From assembly GCA_022825065.1 (NCBI GenBank), contig JAJDYR010000026.1, positions 1 to 64,000 on the forward strand: DNA of 64,000 nt, read 5' to 3'. Both the position numbers and the translations under genes were made by a program. Below are positions 484-9,399 of the stretch, in pieces (the first letter of the stretch is position 1; each line of letters begins with the position of its first letter). The notes under the pieces were generated by a model. It did not search any database, was not told the origin of the DNA, and saw only the letters and a program-made list of their open reading frames with translations. The stretch comes from a bacterium. Lineage in GTDB: Bacteria > UBA8248.

Positions 484-3400
484 TCAGGCTTCCTCTTCCT
501 CTTGTTCGATGAGGTTGATCGCTTTCCTGGGCCTTACGCGCTCAGAAGGTGGGCCGCTCGCCCCGCTCGGCGCGGCGGCCGCAGCGGCGAAGCTGGCCGG
601 CCGGATGAACGCCAGGAAATCCACCCACAACGAGAAGACGACCGGTATCAGCAGCAGGGTGAAGATCGTGGACATGGCCAGTCCGCCCAGGACGGCCGAG
701 CCCAGCCCCCGGTAGAGTTCGCTGCCCGCGCCGGAGGCGAGCACCAGCGGCAGCATGCCGAGAACGGTCGTCGTGGTCGTCATGAAGATGGGGCGCATCC
801 TGTCGCGCGCGCTCTCGAGAATCGCCTCGCGCATGGGAAGGCCCGCGCGGAAGTGGTTCAGCGCCTGGTGGACGAGCAGAATCGCGTTGTTCACCACGAT
901 GCCCGTCAGGATGATGAAGCCCAGCATGGTGAGCGTGTCCATCTTCACCGAGGGTTCTATCGAGTTCATGAAACTCACCATGAGTACCCCGCCCGTTGCG
1001 GCGAACGGCACGCTGAACATGATGATGAGCGGGTAGCTCCACGCCTCGAAGAGGGCCGCCATCAGCAGATAGGTGATCAGGACGGCGAGCACCAGCGACC
1101 ACTGGAGCGACGCCCAGGTTCGCTCCAGGTCTTTCGCCCGTCCGCTCACGTCCACCGAATAGCCGAGCGGAAGCGTCTGGCGCATCGGGTTGATGACCTC
1201 CCGCTTCATCTTGTCGATGGCGTCCTGGAGCGGGAGTTCCTCGCCGATGTTGACCGTGAGCGACACGGAGCGGTCGCGGTCGATGTGCTCGACTTTCGTC
1301 GGCCCGAGCGCCGCCCTGACGCTGGCGATGTCGCCGAGCGAAACGACCTGCCCCTCGGGCGTATGAACTTTCAGTTCCTCGATCCGCTGCGTCCTGGTGA
1401 AATCGGAAAGCGGCCCGCGCAGTACGATATCGAGTTCCTCCCCGCGGTCCCGGAAAAGACCGGCCTTGGTTCCGTTCACGAGCGTTTCCACGACGCTCCC
1501 GATCTCGGAGACCGACAACCCGAATTCCGCCGTTTTCTGGCGATCCACGTGCACCTGAAGCTCGGGATTTCCCAGGTCGAAGCTCGAATTCACGAAGCGC
1601 ACGCCCCCGAGACCGCGCGAGCGGGCGCCCACGTCGGCGGCGATGCGCTGGATCTCGCTCAGGCTGTCTCCGGTGATGTCGACCTGCAGGTTGATCCCGC
1701 CGATGAAGCCCGAACCCCGCCGCCTGAACAACGACGCCTGGGTGACGAACGCGCGCACCCCCGGTATGCCCTGCATCATTCCGAACAACTTGCCCACGAG
1801 CCGCCGCATGGATTCGAGATCCGAGTATTCCTTCTTGGCGATCATGCCGATGATGGGGTTCTGCGCGCGCGCCACGGCGAAAAACCGGTCGATTTCCTCC
1901 ACGCGGTCGAGCCGCGTCTCCAGAATTCGCACGATCCTGTCCATCTCGTCGAGGTTCAGGCCCGGCGGCGTGCGCATGAAGGCGAATATGAGATTGCGGT
2001 TGCCCTTGGGCAGATAGTCGATGGGCGGGAAGAACATCACCGCCAGGGCCAAGGCGCCCGCCGTGATGCCCGTGGCCACGAACAACCGCCTTGCCACCCC
2101 GCGCAACAGCCAGGAGAGGACGCCCACGTAGATTCTCCGGCAAAGCCTCCCCAGCGCGTATACCCCCAGGATGCGGAAAAAGTGGGTCAGCGGGGAGATC
2201 TTCCCCGCACCGCTCAGGATGCGTGAACTCAGCATGGGCACGACGGAGATCGACACCACGAGGGAGAGCGCCACGGCCACGCTGATGGCGATGGCGATGT
2301 CGCGGAAGAGTTGGCCCGATTCGTCCTGGACGAACACCACGGGAACGAAGACGGCCAGCGTGGTCAGCGTGGAGGCCAGCACCGCCCCCCAGACCTCCTG
2401 CGCGCCGTCCACGGCGGCGTCCCACTTGCTCTTTCCCATCTCGCGGTGTCGGAAGATGTTCTCCAGCACGACGACGGAGTTGTCCACCACCATGCCGACG
2501 GCGAACGCCATGCCTGCAAGCGAAATAATGTTGATGGAGCGATCCAGCACGAAGATCAGGATGAACGTGGAGACGACGGTGACCGGGATGGCGACGCCGA
2601 TAACCATCACGCTCGAAAGACTCCCCAGGAACAGGAGCAGCACGCCTATCGCAAGCGCGCCGCCTATGAAGATGTTGTTGATCACCAGGGAGCGTGACTG
2701 GTGGATGTAGTCCGTCTCGTCATAGACCTGCCTGAGTTTGATGCCGCGGCCCGCGTAGATTTCGTTGACTTCGGCGATCGCCTTCTTGACCCCCGCCATC
2801 ACCTCGATGGTGTTCGCGCCCGTCTTTCGCAAAACCCCGAAAGCCATGGTGGGCACGCGCCGGATGCGAATGTAGCGGGTGGGATCGCCATAGTCGAAGG
2901 AAACCTTCGCCACGTCGCGCAGGTAGACGGCCCCGCTCCCGTTTTGCGCGATGATGGTGTTGCGCAACTGGTCGAGGCGCGTGAAGTTGCCCACCGTTCG
3001 CACCGCGTAGCGGCGCTTGCCCTCGTCGATCCTGCCCGCTTTGGTGTTCTTGTTCTCGCGCCGCAGCGCCTCTCTCAAGGCGGAGACCGTGATGCCGCGC
3101 GCGCTCATGGCCGTGTAATCGAGCGTGACGCGCACCTCCCTGTCTCGGCCGCCGAACATCCAGACCTGGCCCACGCCTTCCACGCGCTCGAGCTTCGGCC
3201 GGATGACGGCGTCTCCCTCCACGCGAACATCGTTGATGGGTAATTTGGTCTCGACGATTATCCAGGCGATGGGGTTTTCAGAATCCGAGTTGAGCGCATT
3301 AACGGTGGAGCGGTCCGAATCATCCGGCAGGTCGCGCACGAGACCGAGTTTCTCCGAGACGTCGAGCCGGGCCACGTCCTTGTTCACGTCCCAGTCGAAT

Positions 3401-3681
3401 TCGAGAAAGACGCGGGATTTGCCCTCCTCGCTGCGCGAGGTCATCCGGTCGAGGCCCTCCACCGAGGTGAGTTTCTCCTCTTTGGGCTTCGTCACCTCCT
3501 CTTCCACCTCCAGAGGTGCTGCGCCGCTGTATTCGGTCTCCACCGTGATGACGGGCCTGTCGACCGTGGGCGTCATCTGCACCGGAATCCGGTAGAGGCT
3601 GATGGCGCCGAAGAGCACCGCCAGAATGACGCCGACGGTGGTCGTGACGGGGTATTTAACGCTCGCGCGGGGCAGATTCAT
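484..3681 (-). CDS. RND efflux pump inner-membrane transporter (AcrB/HAE1-type)
   Basis: At 1065 residues this is the normal length for the hydrophobe/amphiphile efflux branch of the RND superfamily. It shows the duplicated plan: a first membrane helix at about 12-32, a large periplasmic loop to about 335, a helix bundle at about 336-490, a second large loop, and a final helix bundle to about 1025. The proton-relay helix reads GMVVDNSVVVLENI around residues 396-408, with Asp-Asn where AcrB has Asp-Asp, as in many HAE1 relatives. A good Shine-Dalgarno (GAAGGAGAGGGG) precedes the ATG. The upstream gene on the same strand encodes its periplasmic adaptor. No TolC-type outer-membrane channel is in the window. 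Substrate is unknown. Confidence 0.93.
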   Translation of the reverse strand: MNLPRASVKYPVTTTVGVILAVLFGAISLYRIPVQMTPTVDRPVITVETEYSGAAPLEVEEEVTKPKEEKLTSVEGLDRMTSRSEEGKSRVFLEFDWDVNKDVARLDVSEKLGLVRDLPDDSDRSTVNALNSDSENPIAWIIVETKLPINDVRVEGDAVIRPKLERVEGVGQVWMFGGRDREVRVTLDYTAMSARGITVSALREALRRENKNTKAGRIDEGKRRYAVRTVGNFTRLDQLRNTIIAQNGSGAVYLRDVAKVSFDYGDPTRYIRIRRVPTMAFGVLRKTGANTIEVMAGVKKAIAEVNEIYAGRGIKLRQVYDETDYIHQSRSLVINNIFIGGALAIGVLLLFLGSLSSVMVIGVAIPVTVVSTFILIFVLDRSINIISLAGMAFAVGMVVDNSVVVLENIFRHREMGKSKWDAAVDGAQEVWGAVLASTLTTLAVFVPVVFVQDESGQLFRDIAIAISVAVALSLVVSISVVPMLSSRILSGAGKISPLTHFFRILGVYALGRLCRRIYVGVLSWLLRGVARRLFVATGITAGALALAVMFFPPIDYLPKGNRNLIFAFMRTPPGLNLDEMDRIVRILETRLDRVEEIDRFFAVARAQNPIIGMIAKKEYSDLESMRRLVGKLFGMMQGIPGVRAFVTQASLFRRRGSGFIGGINLQVDITGDSLSEIQRIAADVGARSRGLGGVRFVNSSFDLGNPELQVHVDRQKTAEFGLSVSEIGSVVETLVNGTKAGLFRDRGEELDIVLRGPLSDFTRTQRIEELKVHTPEGQVVSLGDIASVRAALGPTKVEHIDRDRSVSLTVNIGEELPLQDAIDKMKREVINPMRQTLPLGYSVDVSGRAKDLERTWASLQWSLVLAVLITYLLMAALFEAWSYPLIIMFSVPFAATGGVLMVSFMNSIEPSVKMDTLTMLGFIILTGIVVNNAILLVHQALNHFRAGLPMREAILESARDRMRPIFMTTTTTVLGMLPLVLASGAGSELYRGLGSAVLGGLAMSTIFTLLLIPVVFSLWVDFLAFIRPASFAAAAAAPSGASGPPSERVRPRKAINLIEQEEEEA

Positions 3682-3798
3682 CCCCTCTCCTTCAACAGCG
3701 GCTTTTGAATAAATCGCTCGTGCGTGAAGCTGTGCCCAGTTCCGTTACACCGCATTCATGTTTCTGCAGATATTCAACCAGTTTCAGCCAAATGCATA

Positions 3799-5142
3799 TC
3801 ATCCCCCGGCGCCGCGCCGGGAATCAGCGGCGGGCTTCCCGCCTCTTCGGGGGCCGCCTCTCGGGGGGCCGCCGCGCCCTCCGCCGGGCCGTCCACCCCG
3901 GCCCTGCACGCGGACGGGCATGCCGGATCTCAGGTTCTCGTTTCCCTTCACCACCACCTGCGTCCCGGCCCTGAGCGCGCCGCCCGGAACTTCCATGAAA
4001 GAATCCACGCTTCTGCCCTGCACGAAGGACACCTCGCGAACGCGCCCCTTCTCGAAGACGAAGACCGAAGGCCCGCGCGCTCTCAAGATCAGGGCGTCCT
4101 TGGGCACCAGAACCATTCTGGCCGCCTTTCCGTATTCGAGGCTCAGGCGGGCGAACATGCCTGCCTTGAGATCGTAGGACTCGGTGTTCGTTATCTCCAC
4201 TTCCACCGGGAAGGTCCGGCTCTTGGGGTCCGCCTTGGGGATGACGCCGCGCACCCGGCCCCTGAACGTCCGGCCCCCCAGGGCGTCGATGACGACGCGC
4301 GCCTCATCGCCCACCCGAACCAGCGATATGCGCCGCTCCGCAATCGGGGCCTGCACCAGCACCTTGTCGAGTTCGATGACTTCGGCCACGCGGCCCCCCT
4401 TGGTGAGCCACTGGCCGACCTCCACCCACTCCTGGGTGATGAAACCCGTGAGCGGGGAGCGAATTTTCGTCTTGGCCAGATCGTCGCGCACCCGGGCGAC
4501 GCGCGCCCGCACCCTGTCCACCTCCGCCTTGGCGCGGGCTTTCTCCTCCCTCCGGGGGCCGAGTCTGGCGATCTCCAGGTTGCGGGAGGCTTCCTCGAAC
4601 AACTGCCAACTGGCCTCGTAGGCGGCCTCGGCGCGATCGAGGCTGGCCTTGTCCAGAATTTTCTTCTCATACAGATCCCGCGCGCGATTGAGTTCGAGTT
4701 CGTTGTTCCTCATCTGCGCTTCGCGCTCGCGCACCTTGGCCTGGAGCGCCGCGATCTCCTCGGGGCGCTTTCCGCGCTCCAGGCGCAGGAGGTCCTGGCG
4801 CGCCTTCTCCAGTTCCGCCCGCAGGATGCGCAGATCAATCTGGAGACCCGAACGCCCCACCGTGGCGAGCACCGTCTCGTTCACGCGGACGAAATCGCCC
4901 ACTTTGATCGGGGCCGACTGCACCCGGCCTTCGAGTTCGCTGCTTACGACCGAGCGGCGGTAGGGCGCCACGCTGCCCACGGCGGTGAGGCGGTTCCTCA
5001 CCTGGCGCTCCACCACCTTCGCCACGGACACCAGCGGCGGGGGCCGCTTGCGCGGACGCCCGGCTTCGGAGGCGGCGATGTTCAAGCCGAAAGATGCAAG
5101 AATGATGAGAACGGAAATGGCTCGGGCGATGAGAGAGTTCAC
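3799..5142 (-). CDS. RND efflux periplasmic adaptor (membrane fusion protein) with Arg/Gly-rich tail
   Basis: 447 residues, GTG start with AGGAGA a few bases upstream. An N-terminal signal or anchor (about 1-26) is followed by a lipoyl-like half motif, a long alpha-helical hairpin (about 100-195, rich in Glu, Arg, Leu and Ala), the second lipoyl half, and beta-barrel and membrane-proximal domains ending near 400. This is the AcrA/MexA order. It lies 117 bases upstream of the RND pump gene and is probably co-transcribed with it. The oddity is the C-terminus: about 37 residues of Gly, Arg and Pro low complexity beginning near RVQGRGGRPGG, not normal for this family. Whether the tail is functional or a drifted 3' end is unknown. 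Confidence 0.92.
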   Translation of the reverse strand: MNSLIARAISVLIILASFGLNIAASEAGRPRKRPPPLVSVAKVVERQVRNRLTAVGSVAPYRRSVVSSELEGRVQSAPIKVGDFVRVNETVLATVGRSGLQIDLRILRAELEKARQDLLRLERGKRPEEIAALQAKVREREAQMRNNELELNRARDLYEKKILDKASLDRAEAAYEASWQLFEEASRNLEIARLGPRREEKARAKAEVDRVRARVARVRDDLAKTKIRSPLTGFITQEWVEVGQWLTKGGRVAEVIELDKVLVQAPIAERRISLVRVGDEARVVIDALGGRTFRGRVRGVIPKADPKSRTFPVEVEITNTESYDLKAGMFARLSLEYGKAARMVLVPKDALILRARGPSVFVFEKGRVREVSFVQGRSVDSFMEVPGGALRAGTQVVVKGNENLRSGMPVRVQGRGGRPGGGRGGPPRGGPRRGGKPAADSRRGAGG

Positions 5143-5387: not shown

Positions 5388-7004
5388 ATGCGCATCGTTC
5401 TCGCCGGTCACAACGTCGACGTCGACGTTCTCCGCCAGATGAAAAAAGAGATCATCGAGCCCGCCGCCCGCGGCTGGGAGGAAAACCGCCTCGACGCCAT
5501 GAGCGAGGCCGAACTGCGCGCGCAGACGGCGGAACTCCAGCGACGGGCCGCCGATTTCCTGGAACGCGACAACCTGACGCCCGAGCCCATCAGCGCGTCC
5601 TACGCGCGCATCAGCCGGGATCCGCGGCCCATCGACGAACTCCGCGCCATCGCGCGCGAAGAGGTGGAAAAGGCGAGAAAGAGCAACCAGACCATCATCT
5701 TCGGCTACGGGCACAGTTCCGTGGCCGAGCACGCGAGCTTCAACATCGACGTCATCGGCGTGAGCCGCTACGCGGTGGAGGAGATCCAGAAGTTCAGGCT
5801 CCTCGCCTACACGGAGAAGAGCCAGCGCTACATCCTGCTGGAAGACGATTTCGTGATTCCTGAGGAAATCGAAACAGCGGGCATGAAGGGCCTGTTCGTG
5901 CGGACGATAAAGGCCCAGAACGCCTGCTACCACGCGCTGTATGAAAAACTGAGGCCCTGGGTGTTCGACCAGAACCCCGAACTCGCCGCGAAGAAGAGAA
6001 ACCACAAGACGCTGGAGGGCTGGGCCAAGGAGGACGCGCGCTACATCGTCTCTTTCGCCACCGAATCGCAAATCGGCATGACGCTCAGCGCGAGGAGCCT
6101 CGAGCACGTCATCTGCCGCTGCGCCTCGCACCCCCTCGCGGAAATCAGGGAATACGCGCGCCGTCTGTATGAATGCGTCGAGGGCGTCGCGCCCTCGCTC
6201 GTGAAATACACCGACCCCACCGAATACAACATGCATACCCGCGCGGCGCTGCGCGAGGCGGCCTCCGACATCCTGGGGCGAGTGGACGAGGAGACCGAGC
6301 CGGTTCCGCCCATCGCCGAGGAGAAGGACGTCTCCCTCATCGACGTCACCCCGGACGCGGACGCGCTCATCGCCGCGGCGCTCCTCCACTCATCCTCAGG
6401 GAAACCGATGTCGCGGTGCAAGGCGGCGGCCCGGGAGATGAGCGCGGATGAGCGCGCGCGCTTCATCGCCTCCACCTTCCGGCTCATGCGCGGTCACGAC
6501 GCCGTGCTCCGCGAATTCGAGAACGTGCGCTGCGTGTTCGAGGTGACGCTCTCCGCCGCCTGTTTCGGGCAGCTCAAGCGCCACCGCATGTCCACCCTGA
6601 ACACCCAGCCCTACGACATCTCTCTGGGCGTGACGGTGCCCTCGTCAATCACAGAAGCGGGCGCAGAACTCGAGTTTCAGGCCGCCGTGGATGAAACCAA
6701 CGCCGCGTACGAGAAGATCGCCGCGCATACCCCGGCCGCCGCGCCCTACGTGCTCACGAACGCCCACAAACGCCGCGTGCTGTTCTCCTCGAACGCGCGC
6801 GAGCTCTACCACGTCTCGAGGCTCAGGGAAGACCCCCACGCCCAGTGGGACATCCGCGACAAGTCCACGCAGATGATCAGACTCGCCAAAAAGGTCATGC
6901 CCGCCACCATGCAACTCGCCGTCGGGAAGCACCTGTTCGAGGAAACCCACGCGGCGCTCTTCCCGCAGGAAGTCGAGGAAGCGAAAAAAGAAACCGTCAA
7001 GTAA
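5388..7004 (+). CDS. tandem (double-domain) ThyX-like protein
   Basis: 538 residues, about twice a normal flavin-dependent thymidylate synthase (ThyX, usually 210-250). Two ThyX-like halves are visible. The first has GHSSVAEHASF (108-118), a signature-like stretch KFRLLAYTEKSQRY (135-148) and LSARSLEHVICR...AEIREYA (about 232-257). The second has KRHRMSTLNTQPYD (397-410) and SSNARELYHVSRL...AQWDIR (about 467-490). The classical signature is RHRxxSxNExSxR. The first half keeps ExSxRY but has KFR for RHR. The second keeps RHR and Asn but has lost ExSxR. The family is clear, but whether it makes dTMP is not. Its 3' end overlaps the convergent TRAP permease gene by 8 bases. Confidence 0.85.
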   Translation: MRIVLAGHNVDVDVLRQMKKEIIEPAARGWEENRLDAMSEAELRAQTAELQRRAADFLERDNLTPEPISASYARISRDPRPIDELRAIAREEVEKARKSNQTIIFGYGHSSVAEHASFNIDVIGVSRYAVEEIQKFRLLAYTEKSQRYILLEDDFVIPEEIETAGMKGLFVRTIKAQNACYHALYEKLRPWVFDQNPELAAKKRNHKTLEGWAKEDARYIVSFATESQIGMTLSARSLEHVICRCASHPLAEIREYARRLYECVEGVAPSLVKYTDPTEYNMHTRAALREAASDILGRVDEETEPVPPIAEEKDVSLIDVTPDADALIAAALLHSSSGKPMSRCKAAAREMSADERARFIASTFRLMRGHDAVLREFENVRCVFEVTLSAACFGQLKRHRMSTLNTQPYDISLGVTVPSSITEAGAELEFQAAVDETNAAYEKIAAHTPAAAPYVLTNAHKRRVLFSSNARELYHVSRLREDPHAQWDIRDKSTQMIRLAKKVMPATMQLAVGKHLFEETHAALFPQEVEEAKKETVK

Positions 7005-9399
7005 CGCCCTCTCCATCCGCCTTCTGGCGGAACAGGACCGCGCCTCCCGCGGCCAGTCCCAGAACGTGCAGCCACGAAGGACCCAGGAACAGGAGGAGCG
7101 ACGCGCCCGTCATCACGGTCCGCAGCGCGTTGCTCATGGGCGCCCTGCCGAACCCCATCGTCGCCATCGAGAGCAGCGCGATGCCTGCGCAACTGACGGC
7201 CAGGCGGTAGGCCACCGTCCAGAACGTCCCTTCGAGCAAAAGGAGTTCGGGGTAGTAGACGAACAGGTAGGGCACGATGAAGGCGGTGACCGCCAGCCTG
7301 CAGGCGGTGAAACCCGTCTGCATCGGGTTCGCGCCCGATATGCCCGACGCGCCGTAGGCGGCGAGCGCCACCGGCGGCGTGAGGGAGCTGATGACCCCGA
7401 AGTAGAAGATGAAGAAGTGCGCGGCCACCAGCGGCGCGCCCAGATTCGTGACCGAGGGCGCCACCACGATGACCAGAAGCAGATAGGCGGCGATGGTCGG
7501 AAGCCCCATGCCCATGACGAGCGAGGCGATCATCACCAGGAAAAACGCCAGGAACAGGGACGTGGCCGCCATCTCCGTCACCAGGATCGATATGCGCACG
7601 CCGACCGCTGCGAGCACCAACAGGCCGACGATGAGGCCGATGGCCGACGTGGCGGCGACCAGCCCCAAAGAATTTTTCGCGCCCGCCTCCAGGCTCCTCA
7701 AAACGGCGCCGCCCAGATCACGCGCGCTCGCTTTCGCTTCGGGCGTCTCCCCCTTTCGAAACACGGGCAGCGCGATCAGAAAGGCCGCCACGCAACACAG
7801 CGCGATTGGCAGCAAAAGCCCGACGTAGGGAATCTGTCCGACCCACGCGAGTTCAGAGGGTATCTTCCAGCGCGCAAGTCCCAACGCGACGGGAAAGACG
7901 ATGGGAAGCCCCCGCCACCCCGGAACCACCGCGAAGCAGGCTCCGACCAAAACCAGCGCCAGCCTGTGGGGTTGGACTTCTCCCAAAACAGGCAGGGCGA
8001 AGTCTTGAGAGATGAAACCGGGGGCGCTTATTGGCCCGAAAGCGAAGAAGATGGCCGCCAGGATCAGAGCGGCCGCCAGACAGGCGCCCCGATTTCCCCA
8101 CCGCGCCCGTATGAATCTCAGCGAGCGCACCATGTCCACCATCACCAGGAGCGAGACCACCGCCTTGTATCCCGCCAGGCCCGGCGTCTCGCCGCTCACG
8201 ATGCTGGCCAGCAGGATAAGCACGGGGATCAGAAGGTAGCCCCCCTGCTGCACCTGCTCACGGGCGTCGGGTATTTCCGAAGCGTCCATCCTTTCCAGGC
8301 CGAGCCTGCGCGCTTCGAAATATATCGACGTCGAGAGGCTGAAGTAATACAGAAAGGCGGGAACCAGCCCGTAGAGCATCAGGTAGACGTAGGGGACTTC
8401 GATGATCTCGGACATGATGAAGACGCTCGCGCCCATGATGGGCGGCACGATTTGCCCGCCGCACGAGGCCACCGCCTCCACCGCGCCCGCGAACAGGCGG
8501 GAGAACCCGGTGCGGATCATGAGCGGTATCGTGAACGTGCCCGTGCTCACCACGTTGGCCATCGTGGAGCCCGAGACCATGCCGAACATCGAACTCGCGA
8601 CGACCGCCGCCTGGGCGGGTCCGCCCCGGAAACGGCCCGTGAGCGCGAAGGCCAGGTTGATGAGTATCTGCCCGGTTCCCGTCGCTTCCAGAAGGGCGGA
8701 GAACAGGATGAAGATAAAGATGAACTCGCTCATGATGGCCGAGATGGTTCCGAACGTGCCCTCGGAGGTGAGCCACAGATAGGCCGCCAGCCGGCTGTGC
8801 TCCTCCCCCTTGAACGTGTAGATGGCCGGGTCCAGAAAGCCGCGCCCGGGCCATAGCAGGAACAAGGCGGCGAGGGCGGCGAAGCCCACCGCGATCTTGA
8901 GACCCGCGTATCTCCTGAGTCCCGCGAATATGAGAACGCACGAGAAGAAGATGAGCGTCACGTCGCCCAGGTAGGCGTAGACCACGATGCACAGCGTCAC
9001 CAGGAACAGCGGGATGCCCGCAGCGCGGCGCACCATCTCGAGCAGCATGACGGGGCCGAGCCCGGCGACGATGAGGTCGAGCGCGGTCTCGGCCCCGCTT
9101 CTGTCCGCCAGGGCTTCTTCCTCGACCACGAGGTAGATGCAGGCATACAAAGCCAGGCCGATGAAAAGCGCGTCCCACCCGACCGCGAGCGCGCGGGCGG
9201 GGGGCGTCATGTCCTCGCGCTCTCGCCAGTCCAGCATGGGCTTCGTGAGGAAGACCAGCACGCTCGCGAAGGCGAGCATGGTCGCGCGCTGCGCGAACGG
9301 GGAGAGAATCCCGAATCCCACGGTGTAGAGTTCGAACAGGGAAAAACCCAGCGCGAGCGCCGTTACGATTTTGGCGTTTAGCCTGCGATAGGCGTCCAA
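6997..9399 (-). CDS. TRAP transporter fused permease (4TM/12TM, TAXI type)
   Basis: 800 residues, almost entirely hydrophobic helices. This matches the fused small (DctQ-like) plus large (DctM-like) membrane subunits that accompany TAXI-type binding proteins. The large-subunit region has motifs such as GMVSGSTMANVVSTGTFTIP and a late GMGLPTIAAYLLL, typical of DctM helices. The probable start is TTG with only a weak ribosome site. The TAXI binding-protein gene lies just upstream on the same strand, so the two form one uptake system driven by an ion gradient. The substrate is not predictable, though C4-dicarboxylate or amino-acid-like anions are usual. Length and neighbour both fit. Confidence 0.93.
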   Translation of the reverse strand: MDAYRRLNAKIVTALALGFSLFELYTVGFGILSPFAQRATMLAFASVLVFLTKPMLDWREREDMTPPARALAVGWDALFIGLALYACIYLVVEEEALADRSGAETALDLIVAGLGPVMLLEMVRRAAGIPLFLVTLCIVVYAYLGDVTLIFFSCVLIFAGLRRYAGLKIAVGFAALAALFLLWPGRGFLDPAIYTFKGEEHSRLAAYLWLTSEGTFGTISAIMSEFIFIFILFSALLEATGTGQILINLAFALTGRFRGGPAQAAVVASSMFGMVSGSTMANVVSTGTFTIPLMIRTGFSRLFAGAVEAVASCGGQIVPPIMGASVFIMSEIIEVPYVYLMLYGLVPAFLYYFSLSTSIYFEARRLGLERMDASEIPDAREQVQQGGYLLIPVLILLASIVSGETPGLAGYKAVVSLLVMVDMVRSLRFIRARWGNRGACLAAALILAAIFFAFGPISAPGFISQDFALPVLGEVQPHRLALVLVGACFAVVPGWRGLPIVFPVALGLARWKIPSELAWVGQIPYVGLLLPIALCCVAAFLIALPVFRKGETPEAKASARDLGGAVLRSLEAGAKNSLGLVAATSAIGLIVGLLVLAAVGVRISILVTEMAATSLFLAFFLVMIASLVMGMGLPTIAAYLLLVIVVAPSVTNLGAPLVAAHFFIFYFGVISSLTPPVALAAYGASGISGANPMQTGFTACRLAVTAFIVPYLFVYYPELLLLEGTFWTVAYRLAVSCAGIALLSMATMGFGRAPMSNALRTVMTGASLLLFLGPSWLHVLGLAAGGAVLFRQKADGEGVT

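Follow-up and report, generated by a model that had tools for sequence, protein, structure and literature searches.

A tandem ThyX protein with complementary loss of active-site residues in its two fused halves

Results

The tandem thyX gene and its surroundings

The window, i.e. the whole stretch of DNA that was analyzed (64,000 nucleotides; contig JAJDYR010000026.1 of assembly GCA_022825065.1), carries at 5388-7004 on the forward strand an open reading frame of 538 aa, which starts with ATG and has no internal stop. It holds two Thy1 domains, referred to as half 1 and half 2:

5388..7004, + strand: tandem thyX gene, 538 aa (open reading frame, two Thy1 matches, TIGR02170, AlphaFold model)
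5577..6197, + strand: half 1, Thy1 domain 1 with the dUMP-side residues (Pfam Thy1 127 bits, 1.0e-36; half-1 clade 100/99)
6336..6905, + strand: half 2, Thy1 domain 2 with the RHR flavin side (Pfam Thy1 102 bits, 9.1e-29; half-2 clade 100/99)

Both halves exceed the Pfam Thy1 cut-off of 24.8 bits, and the entire protein is accepted by the NCBI thyX equivalog TIGR02170 (141.6 bits vs a cut-off of 87.9), with no match to PF00303 (ThyA) in the Pfam scan of the protein. The sequence of half 1 is SRYAVEEIQKFRLLAYTEKSQRY and that of half 2 is FGQLKRHRMSTLNTQPYDI. Both neighbours are encoded on the strand opposite to thyX: upstream an AcrB-family pump and a HlyD-type adaptor (484-5142, −), downstream a TRAP DctM transporter (6997-9399, −), whose end overlaps the thyX stop by 8 bases.

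Distribution of the active-site residues

Canonical ThyX is a homotetramer in which each of the four identical active sites is built from three subunits (PMC6514825). For the M. tuberculosis enzyme, subunit A provides RHR (95-97) and Arg199, subunit B Ser71 and Arg190, and subunit C Arg87, the Gln103 backbone, Ser105, Arg107 and the lid Tyr108 (PMC6514825); work on T. maritima ThyX added Ser30 and His53 to the active-site set (PMC11940539). After the residue numbering of the cited ThyX structures had been checked against the sequences, the equivalent positions were located in the window protein:

5613..5615, + strand: Ser76, corresponding to Ser30 of T. maritima ThyX (contact to flavin O4; role from PMC11940539), invariant in 69 diverse tandem proteins
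5718..5720, + strand: Ser111, corresponding to Ser71 of M. tuberculosis ThyX (through which the third subunit contacts FAD phosphate/ribityl; role from PMC6514825)
5766..5768, + strand: Arg127, equivalent of M. tuberculosis Arg87 (dUMP contact), R in 79/106 half 1s
5790..5798, + strand: KFR, aa 135-137, where half 1 has a degenerate RHR (Arg78 equivalent, the first Arg, still R in 3/106 half 1s)
5814..5831, + strand: EKSQRY, aa 143-148, the half-1 counterpart of ExSxRY (loop for dUMP and tyrosine lid)
6039..6041, + strand: Arg218, equivalent of T. maritima Arg147, 106/106 half 1s
6579..6587, + strand: RHR, aa 398-400, the intact flavin/dUMP motif of half 2
6600..6620, + strand: NTQPYDI, the half-2 loop that replaces the lost ExSxRY (SxR[YFHWL] in 0/106 half 2s)
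6825..6827, + strand: Arg480, equivalent of T. maritima Arg174 and M. tuberculosis Arg199 (dUMP uracil), 106/106 half 2s

The initial annotation had described half 1 as keeping the ExSxRY end with KFR in place of RHR, which proved right in sequence and position, the loop reading TEKSQRY up to Y148. For half 2 it had reported a retained RHR and Asn and a lost ExSxR. Here the RHR and the loss hold, TQPYDI following where ExSxRY is expected, but the Asn, which opens the loop as Asn405, is no family feature, since it is T in L013. The R-L-H...EIR helix claimed for each half is also present (R...H...EIR/DIR, aa 244-254 and aa 480-490); just before the position equivalent to Arg480, the half-1 helix is one residue shorter in all representatives shown. 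No R was found at the half-2 equivalents of Arg127 and Arg218 among the residues listed.

Sorted by the subunit that supplies them in the solved tetramers, the residues fall apart cleanly. All residues of the A role lie in half 2 (R398, H399, R400, R480) and all residues of the C role in half 1 (R127, E143, S145, R147, Y148, R218), so that neither role is missing from the polypeptide. In T. maritima numbering, half 1 keeps E86, S88, R90, Y91 and R147 and half 2 keeps RHR and R174; the Ser71 and Ser30 equivalents (S111 and S76) belong to half 1. The complete RHRxxSxNxxSxR signature occurs in neither domain by itself, each half carrying one end, yet the FAD- and dUMP-binding residues are all present within one polypeptide (E143, S145, R147, Y148 and R218 in half 1; R398, H399, R400 and R480 in half 2). 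As judged from the sequence, each half has evidently lost what the other half supplies.

Conservation of the partition among homologues

In order to follow these positions through the family, tandem homologues were collected from the host phylum, Saganbacteria, plasmids, phages, viral contigs and further genomes (n = 106, 81 at <70% identity). The open reading frames were picked by profile and not by motif, and residues were taken at the columns of the window protein. The partition was found in 106/106 homologues, apart from two intermediates (L172 and L210) and one change of Y to K (L064). In half 1, S145 and R147 are conserved in 106/106 and Y148 in 105/106 proteins, the Ser111 position is S in 92/106 and T in 13/106, and the Arg80 equivalent, a point against the composite reading, is R in 70/106; main-group half 2s lack a Ser at the Ser111 position. 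RHR occurs in half 1 of only 2/106 proteins, again L172 and L210. In half 2, R398 and H399 are conserved in 106/106 and R400 in 91/106, the other 15 reading RHNR with the Arg one residue later. The MAFFT placement within the half-2 loop is uncertain, but this leaves the finding that SxRY is lost unaffected. For comparison, all single ThyX controls (74/74) carry the full motif inside one domain.

Among the 69 diverse proteins, whose mean column identity is 26%, 17 columns are invariant; 11 of these are predicted composite-site residues and 0 are the reciprocal positions. The corresponding hypergeometric value of 4e-17 is descriptive and not blind, because the window protein and its relatives themselves served to define the half expected for each role. 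To judge by these counts, the complementary motif pattern goes far beyond chance.

The alignment shows no complete catalytic set in either half of the window protein. In L172 and L210, half 1 has RHR and ExSxRY together and half 2 lacks ExSxRY; these two proteins are possible intermediates in the division of labour. Several further variants were noted. Tyr454 (6747-6749), directly after the canonical Arg147 position, is invariant in half 2s (106/106). A group of 13 tandem proteins (L215-L217, L219-L222, L224-L229) shows the half-1 motif SEQVSQRY and the half-2 motif QRHRxxPxxRP, with Cys/Thr at the Ser30/Ser71 positions and an unchanged partition. Two viral contigs (L059 486-3194, +; L061 585-3275, +) encode a tandem ThyX with a LAGLIDADG intein-like insert between GYGHS and SVAEHA, adjoining the active-site serine equivalent to Ser71. 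Finally, a Bacteroidota/actinobacterial/chlamydia-like branch (L043, L040, L042, L183) has Asp for His53 in half 1 (GDDS), the same change as in the solved T. maritima H53D mutant 4kar.

Structure prediction

An AlphaFold2 model of the window protein was obtained from an alignment of 62 diverse rows, i.e. the 69 after plasmid and phage rows had been left out, and reached a pLDDT of 95.9 and a pTM of 0.91; a run on 8 close homologues (pLDDT 47) was discarded. The monomer model shows the ThyX fold. Its best PDB matches are single ThyX chains, which cover about one half each with TM-scores up to 0.70 (target length), and no tandem ThyX structure was found among the matches listed.

Origin and spread

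A tree was built from 16 tandem proteins and 24 single ThyX, with long branches flagged. In it, the half 1s form one clade and the half 2s another, each with support of 100/99. Both clades are present in every bootstrap tree tested, and the main sub-groups are the same within the two. This pattern points to one duplication and fusion, followed by wide spread; on the tree evidence the tandem type is the product of one ancient fusion with a single origin.

Within the host phylum the tandem gene was found in 14/18 genomes, one of these being a contig-end fragment, and the window reading frame is conserved at 68-96% identity in separate assemblies. In one genome of the host's family (G012) the tandem gene is replaced by a short single ThyX (L014) with KHQ for RHR and the motif NEVSRRY. 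Outside the phylum, 55 genomes from 35 families in an automatically chosen sample of 368 genomes carry the full tandem gene; in three families, some genomes have tandem thyX and others thyA. A scan of viral sequences with the protein of Tunturiibacter phage Tunturi_5, itself a tandem ThyX, gave no match.

Thymidylate supply in the host and in other genomes

The host is a marine bacterium, whose genome (G000) comprises 3.83 Mb. The initial annotation had raised the matter of a separate thyA or canonical thyX, and a profile search of the genome revealed no second ThyX, ThyA (PF00303), Tdk, dNK or FolA; thymidylate kinase is present. Tandem thyX is the only detected thymidylate source and, with neither a second ThyX nor ThyA, the sole thymidylate synthase found in this genome, which is 93.8% complete, so that another source could sit in the missing part. 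Likewise, thyA, tdk and folA were found in 0/18 genomes of the host phylum. One genome of the host's family (G011, 95% complete) gave no ThyX, ThyA or Tdk match at all.

Outside the phylum, thyA occurs in 0/55 tandem genomes vs 92/313 others (Fisher 4e-8; 0.002 at family level), a value that overstates independence because the sampled genomes are related to varying degrees. Furthermore, 0/55 of these tandem genomes have more than two Thy1 matches, i.e. there is no third Thy1 domain.

Discussion

Proposed enzyme and alternative readings

Each half lacks catalytic residues that the other keeps, and the two halves therefore very probably share one working site. This composite site was one of two possibilities put forward in the initial annotation, and it is strongly supported: the kept residues sort exactly by the supplying subunit of the solved ThyX tetramers, and no other thymidylate synthase gene was detected in the host genome. 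We consider it highly likely that the window protein is a genuine flavin-dependent thymidylate synthase, which would act as a homodimer, i.e. a pseudo-tetramer in which two composite sites are live and the other two sites dead. It would convert dUMP, CH2-THF and NADPH to dTMP and THF via FAD, and would be the cell's only de novo route to dTMP. According to this proposal, an ancestral ThyX was duplicated, fused and then specialised, half 2 becoming a permanent A subunit and half 1 a permanent C subunit and probably B as well. With half 2 fixed as A and half 1 as C/B, two chains of 538 aa would yield two composite sites that are complete (half 2 + half 1 + half 1'); the other two sites of the pseudo-tetramer, having neither RHR nor ExSxRY, could not work. 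Each 538-aa chain, i.e. each pair of Thy1 domains, is predicted to offer one FAD and one dUMP site. We infer the dimeric assembly, the half that plays B, the stoichiometry and the activity of this particular protein; the domain structure, the residue partition and its conservation, the single origin and the lack of another detectable thymidylate source were obtained directly by computation.

The weakest step is the assignment of B, because both halves often retain the Arg165/190 equivalent: it is found in both in most members and in half 2 alone in a few. In a composite enzyme of other geometry, the B subunit would be a second half 2 instead of a second half 1. This arrangement is possible, if doubtful. 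It would fit with R471 (the Arg165/190 equivalent), which is kept in half 2 of 69/106 proteins, and with a small clade whose half 1 has lost this equivalent and has Asp at the His53 position; the Ser71 and Ser30 equivalents argue against it, as they are kept in half 1 and absent from main-group half 2s.

The other possibility of the initial annotation, a new flavin or nucleotide function, is improbable. A neofunctionalised enzyme acting on a new substrate (e.g. methylation of UMP or dCMP) instead of making dTMP would be in line with the absence of a complete motif in either half alone, and PolB, reportedly a UMP C5-methylase of nucleoside-antibiotic biosynthesis, the paper on which is said to mention ThyX heavily, would likewise speak for it. 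However, the two halves taken together conserve the canonical dUMP/FAD residues as a complete set, no other thymidylate source was detected in the host genome, and the 55 other tandem genomes lack thyA and a third Thy1 match; on residue conservation and genome content this reading was rejected. Still less credit is due to the idea of an ordinary homotetramer in which one half does the catalysis and the other is only a scaffold. The higher Thy1 score of half 1 and the presence of both RHR and ExSxRY in half 1 of L172 and L210 would speak for it, but in the window protein half 1 is without RHR and half 2 without ExSxRY, and the equivalents of RHR and Arg174, which a mere scaffold would not need, are found in 106/106 half 2s. 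Both signature motifs look damaged, but a degenerate pseudogene or an assembly artefact can be dismissed as a negligible prospect, already refuted by residue conservation and genome content, given an intact reading frame at 68-96% identity in separate assemblies of the phylum and an architecture that recurs on plasmids, in phages and in many further bacteria.

Returning to the composite dTMP synthase, we see about even chances for a wider claim, namely that tandem ThyX constitutes an ancient, obligately asymmetric class of single origin, spread over dozens of bacterial families as well as plasmids and phages, with the three-subunit site irreversibly split between the fused halves, the dead sites perhaps serving as structural or regulatory pockets, and the strict partition being a rule not yet described. 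Such proteins would provide a clear natural example of how fusion with complementary loss turns a homo-oligomer into an obligate pseudo-hetero-oligomer. The proposal makes exact predictions, i.e. one FAD per 538 aa and which mutations kill which role. It also bears on annotation, as each half taken by itself would wrongly imply an inactive protein, and the tandem type apparently extends to Chlamydia and to a considerable fraction of the bacteria that have ThyX.

Comparison with known systems

T. maritima TM0449 (PDB 1o26) and M. tuberculosis ThyX (3gwc) share with tandem ThyX the fold, the FAD/dUMP residues and the three-subunit site. In contrast to the two specialised halves, however, canonical ThyX is a single short chain with the full motif and four equivalent sites. 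When the model was compared with predicted viral proteins, the thymidylate synthase of Microcystis phage LMM01 aligned over 489 columns, a likeness by fold only. The tandem proteins of Bacillus licheniformis pSCDB14 and of phage Tunturi_5 show the same half 1/half 2 partition as the window protein but lie on mobile elements, with 20-26% identity to it.

The initial annotation knew of no described activity for such long ThyX-like proteins, which is probably wrong with respect to C. trachomatis. The C. trachomatis ThyX (CT632) appears to have about 530 aa in two Thy1 halves of the tandem type, and presumably carries EKSTRY in half 1 only and RHR with the Arg174-type Arg in half 2 only. The sequence taken for this enzyme matches L183 at 71% over 528 aa without gaps, and the genome from which L183 comes (1.0 Mb, 99% complete) is without thyA. 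C. trachomatis ThyX thus appears to be of the same tandem type as the window protein. The chlamydial branch is distant, however: the window protein is only about 21-22% identical to the L183 protein, and half 1 of that branch has Asp for His53 and other changes. The C. trachomatis enzyme has been the subject of work by Griffin et al. (2005, J Biol Chem 280:5456), cited in PMC2386288; after purification it was active in an NADPH-oxidation assay (PMC3498832), and it was reported to produce THF (PMC12584634), and C. trachomatis is listed without ThyA or Tdk (PMC4913046). An active tandem ThyX thus very probably exists already.

For Chloroflexi, a ThyX with domain duplication was noted in 2009 and called uncharacterised (Valas and Bourne, PMC3224940); in the passages of that account that were found, neither the residue partition nor a composite site comes up. 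No account of the partition was found in the open-licence literature on ThyX duplication, fusion and composite sites. The window protein shares the features of this chlamydial/Chloroflexi tandem type, i.e. two fused halves, complementary motifs and a single origin. Its proposed function, dTMP synthesis, is ordinary and its architecture unusual, in a wider family that has already been glimpsed in print.
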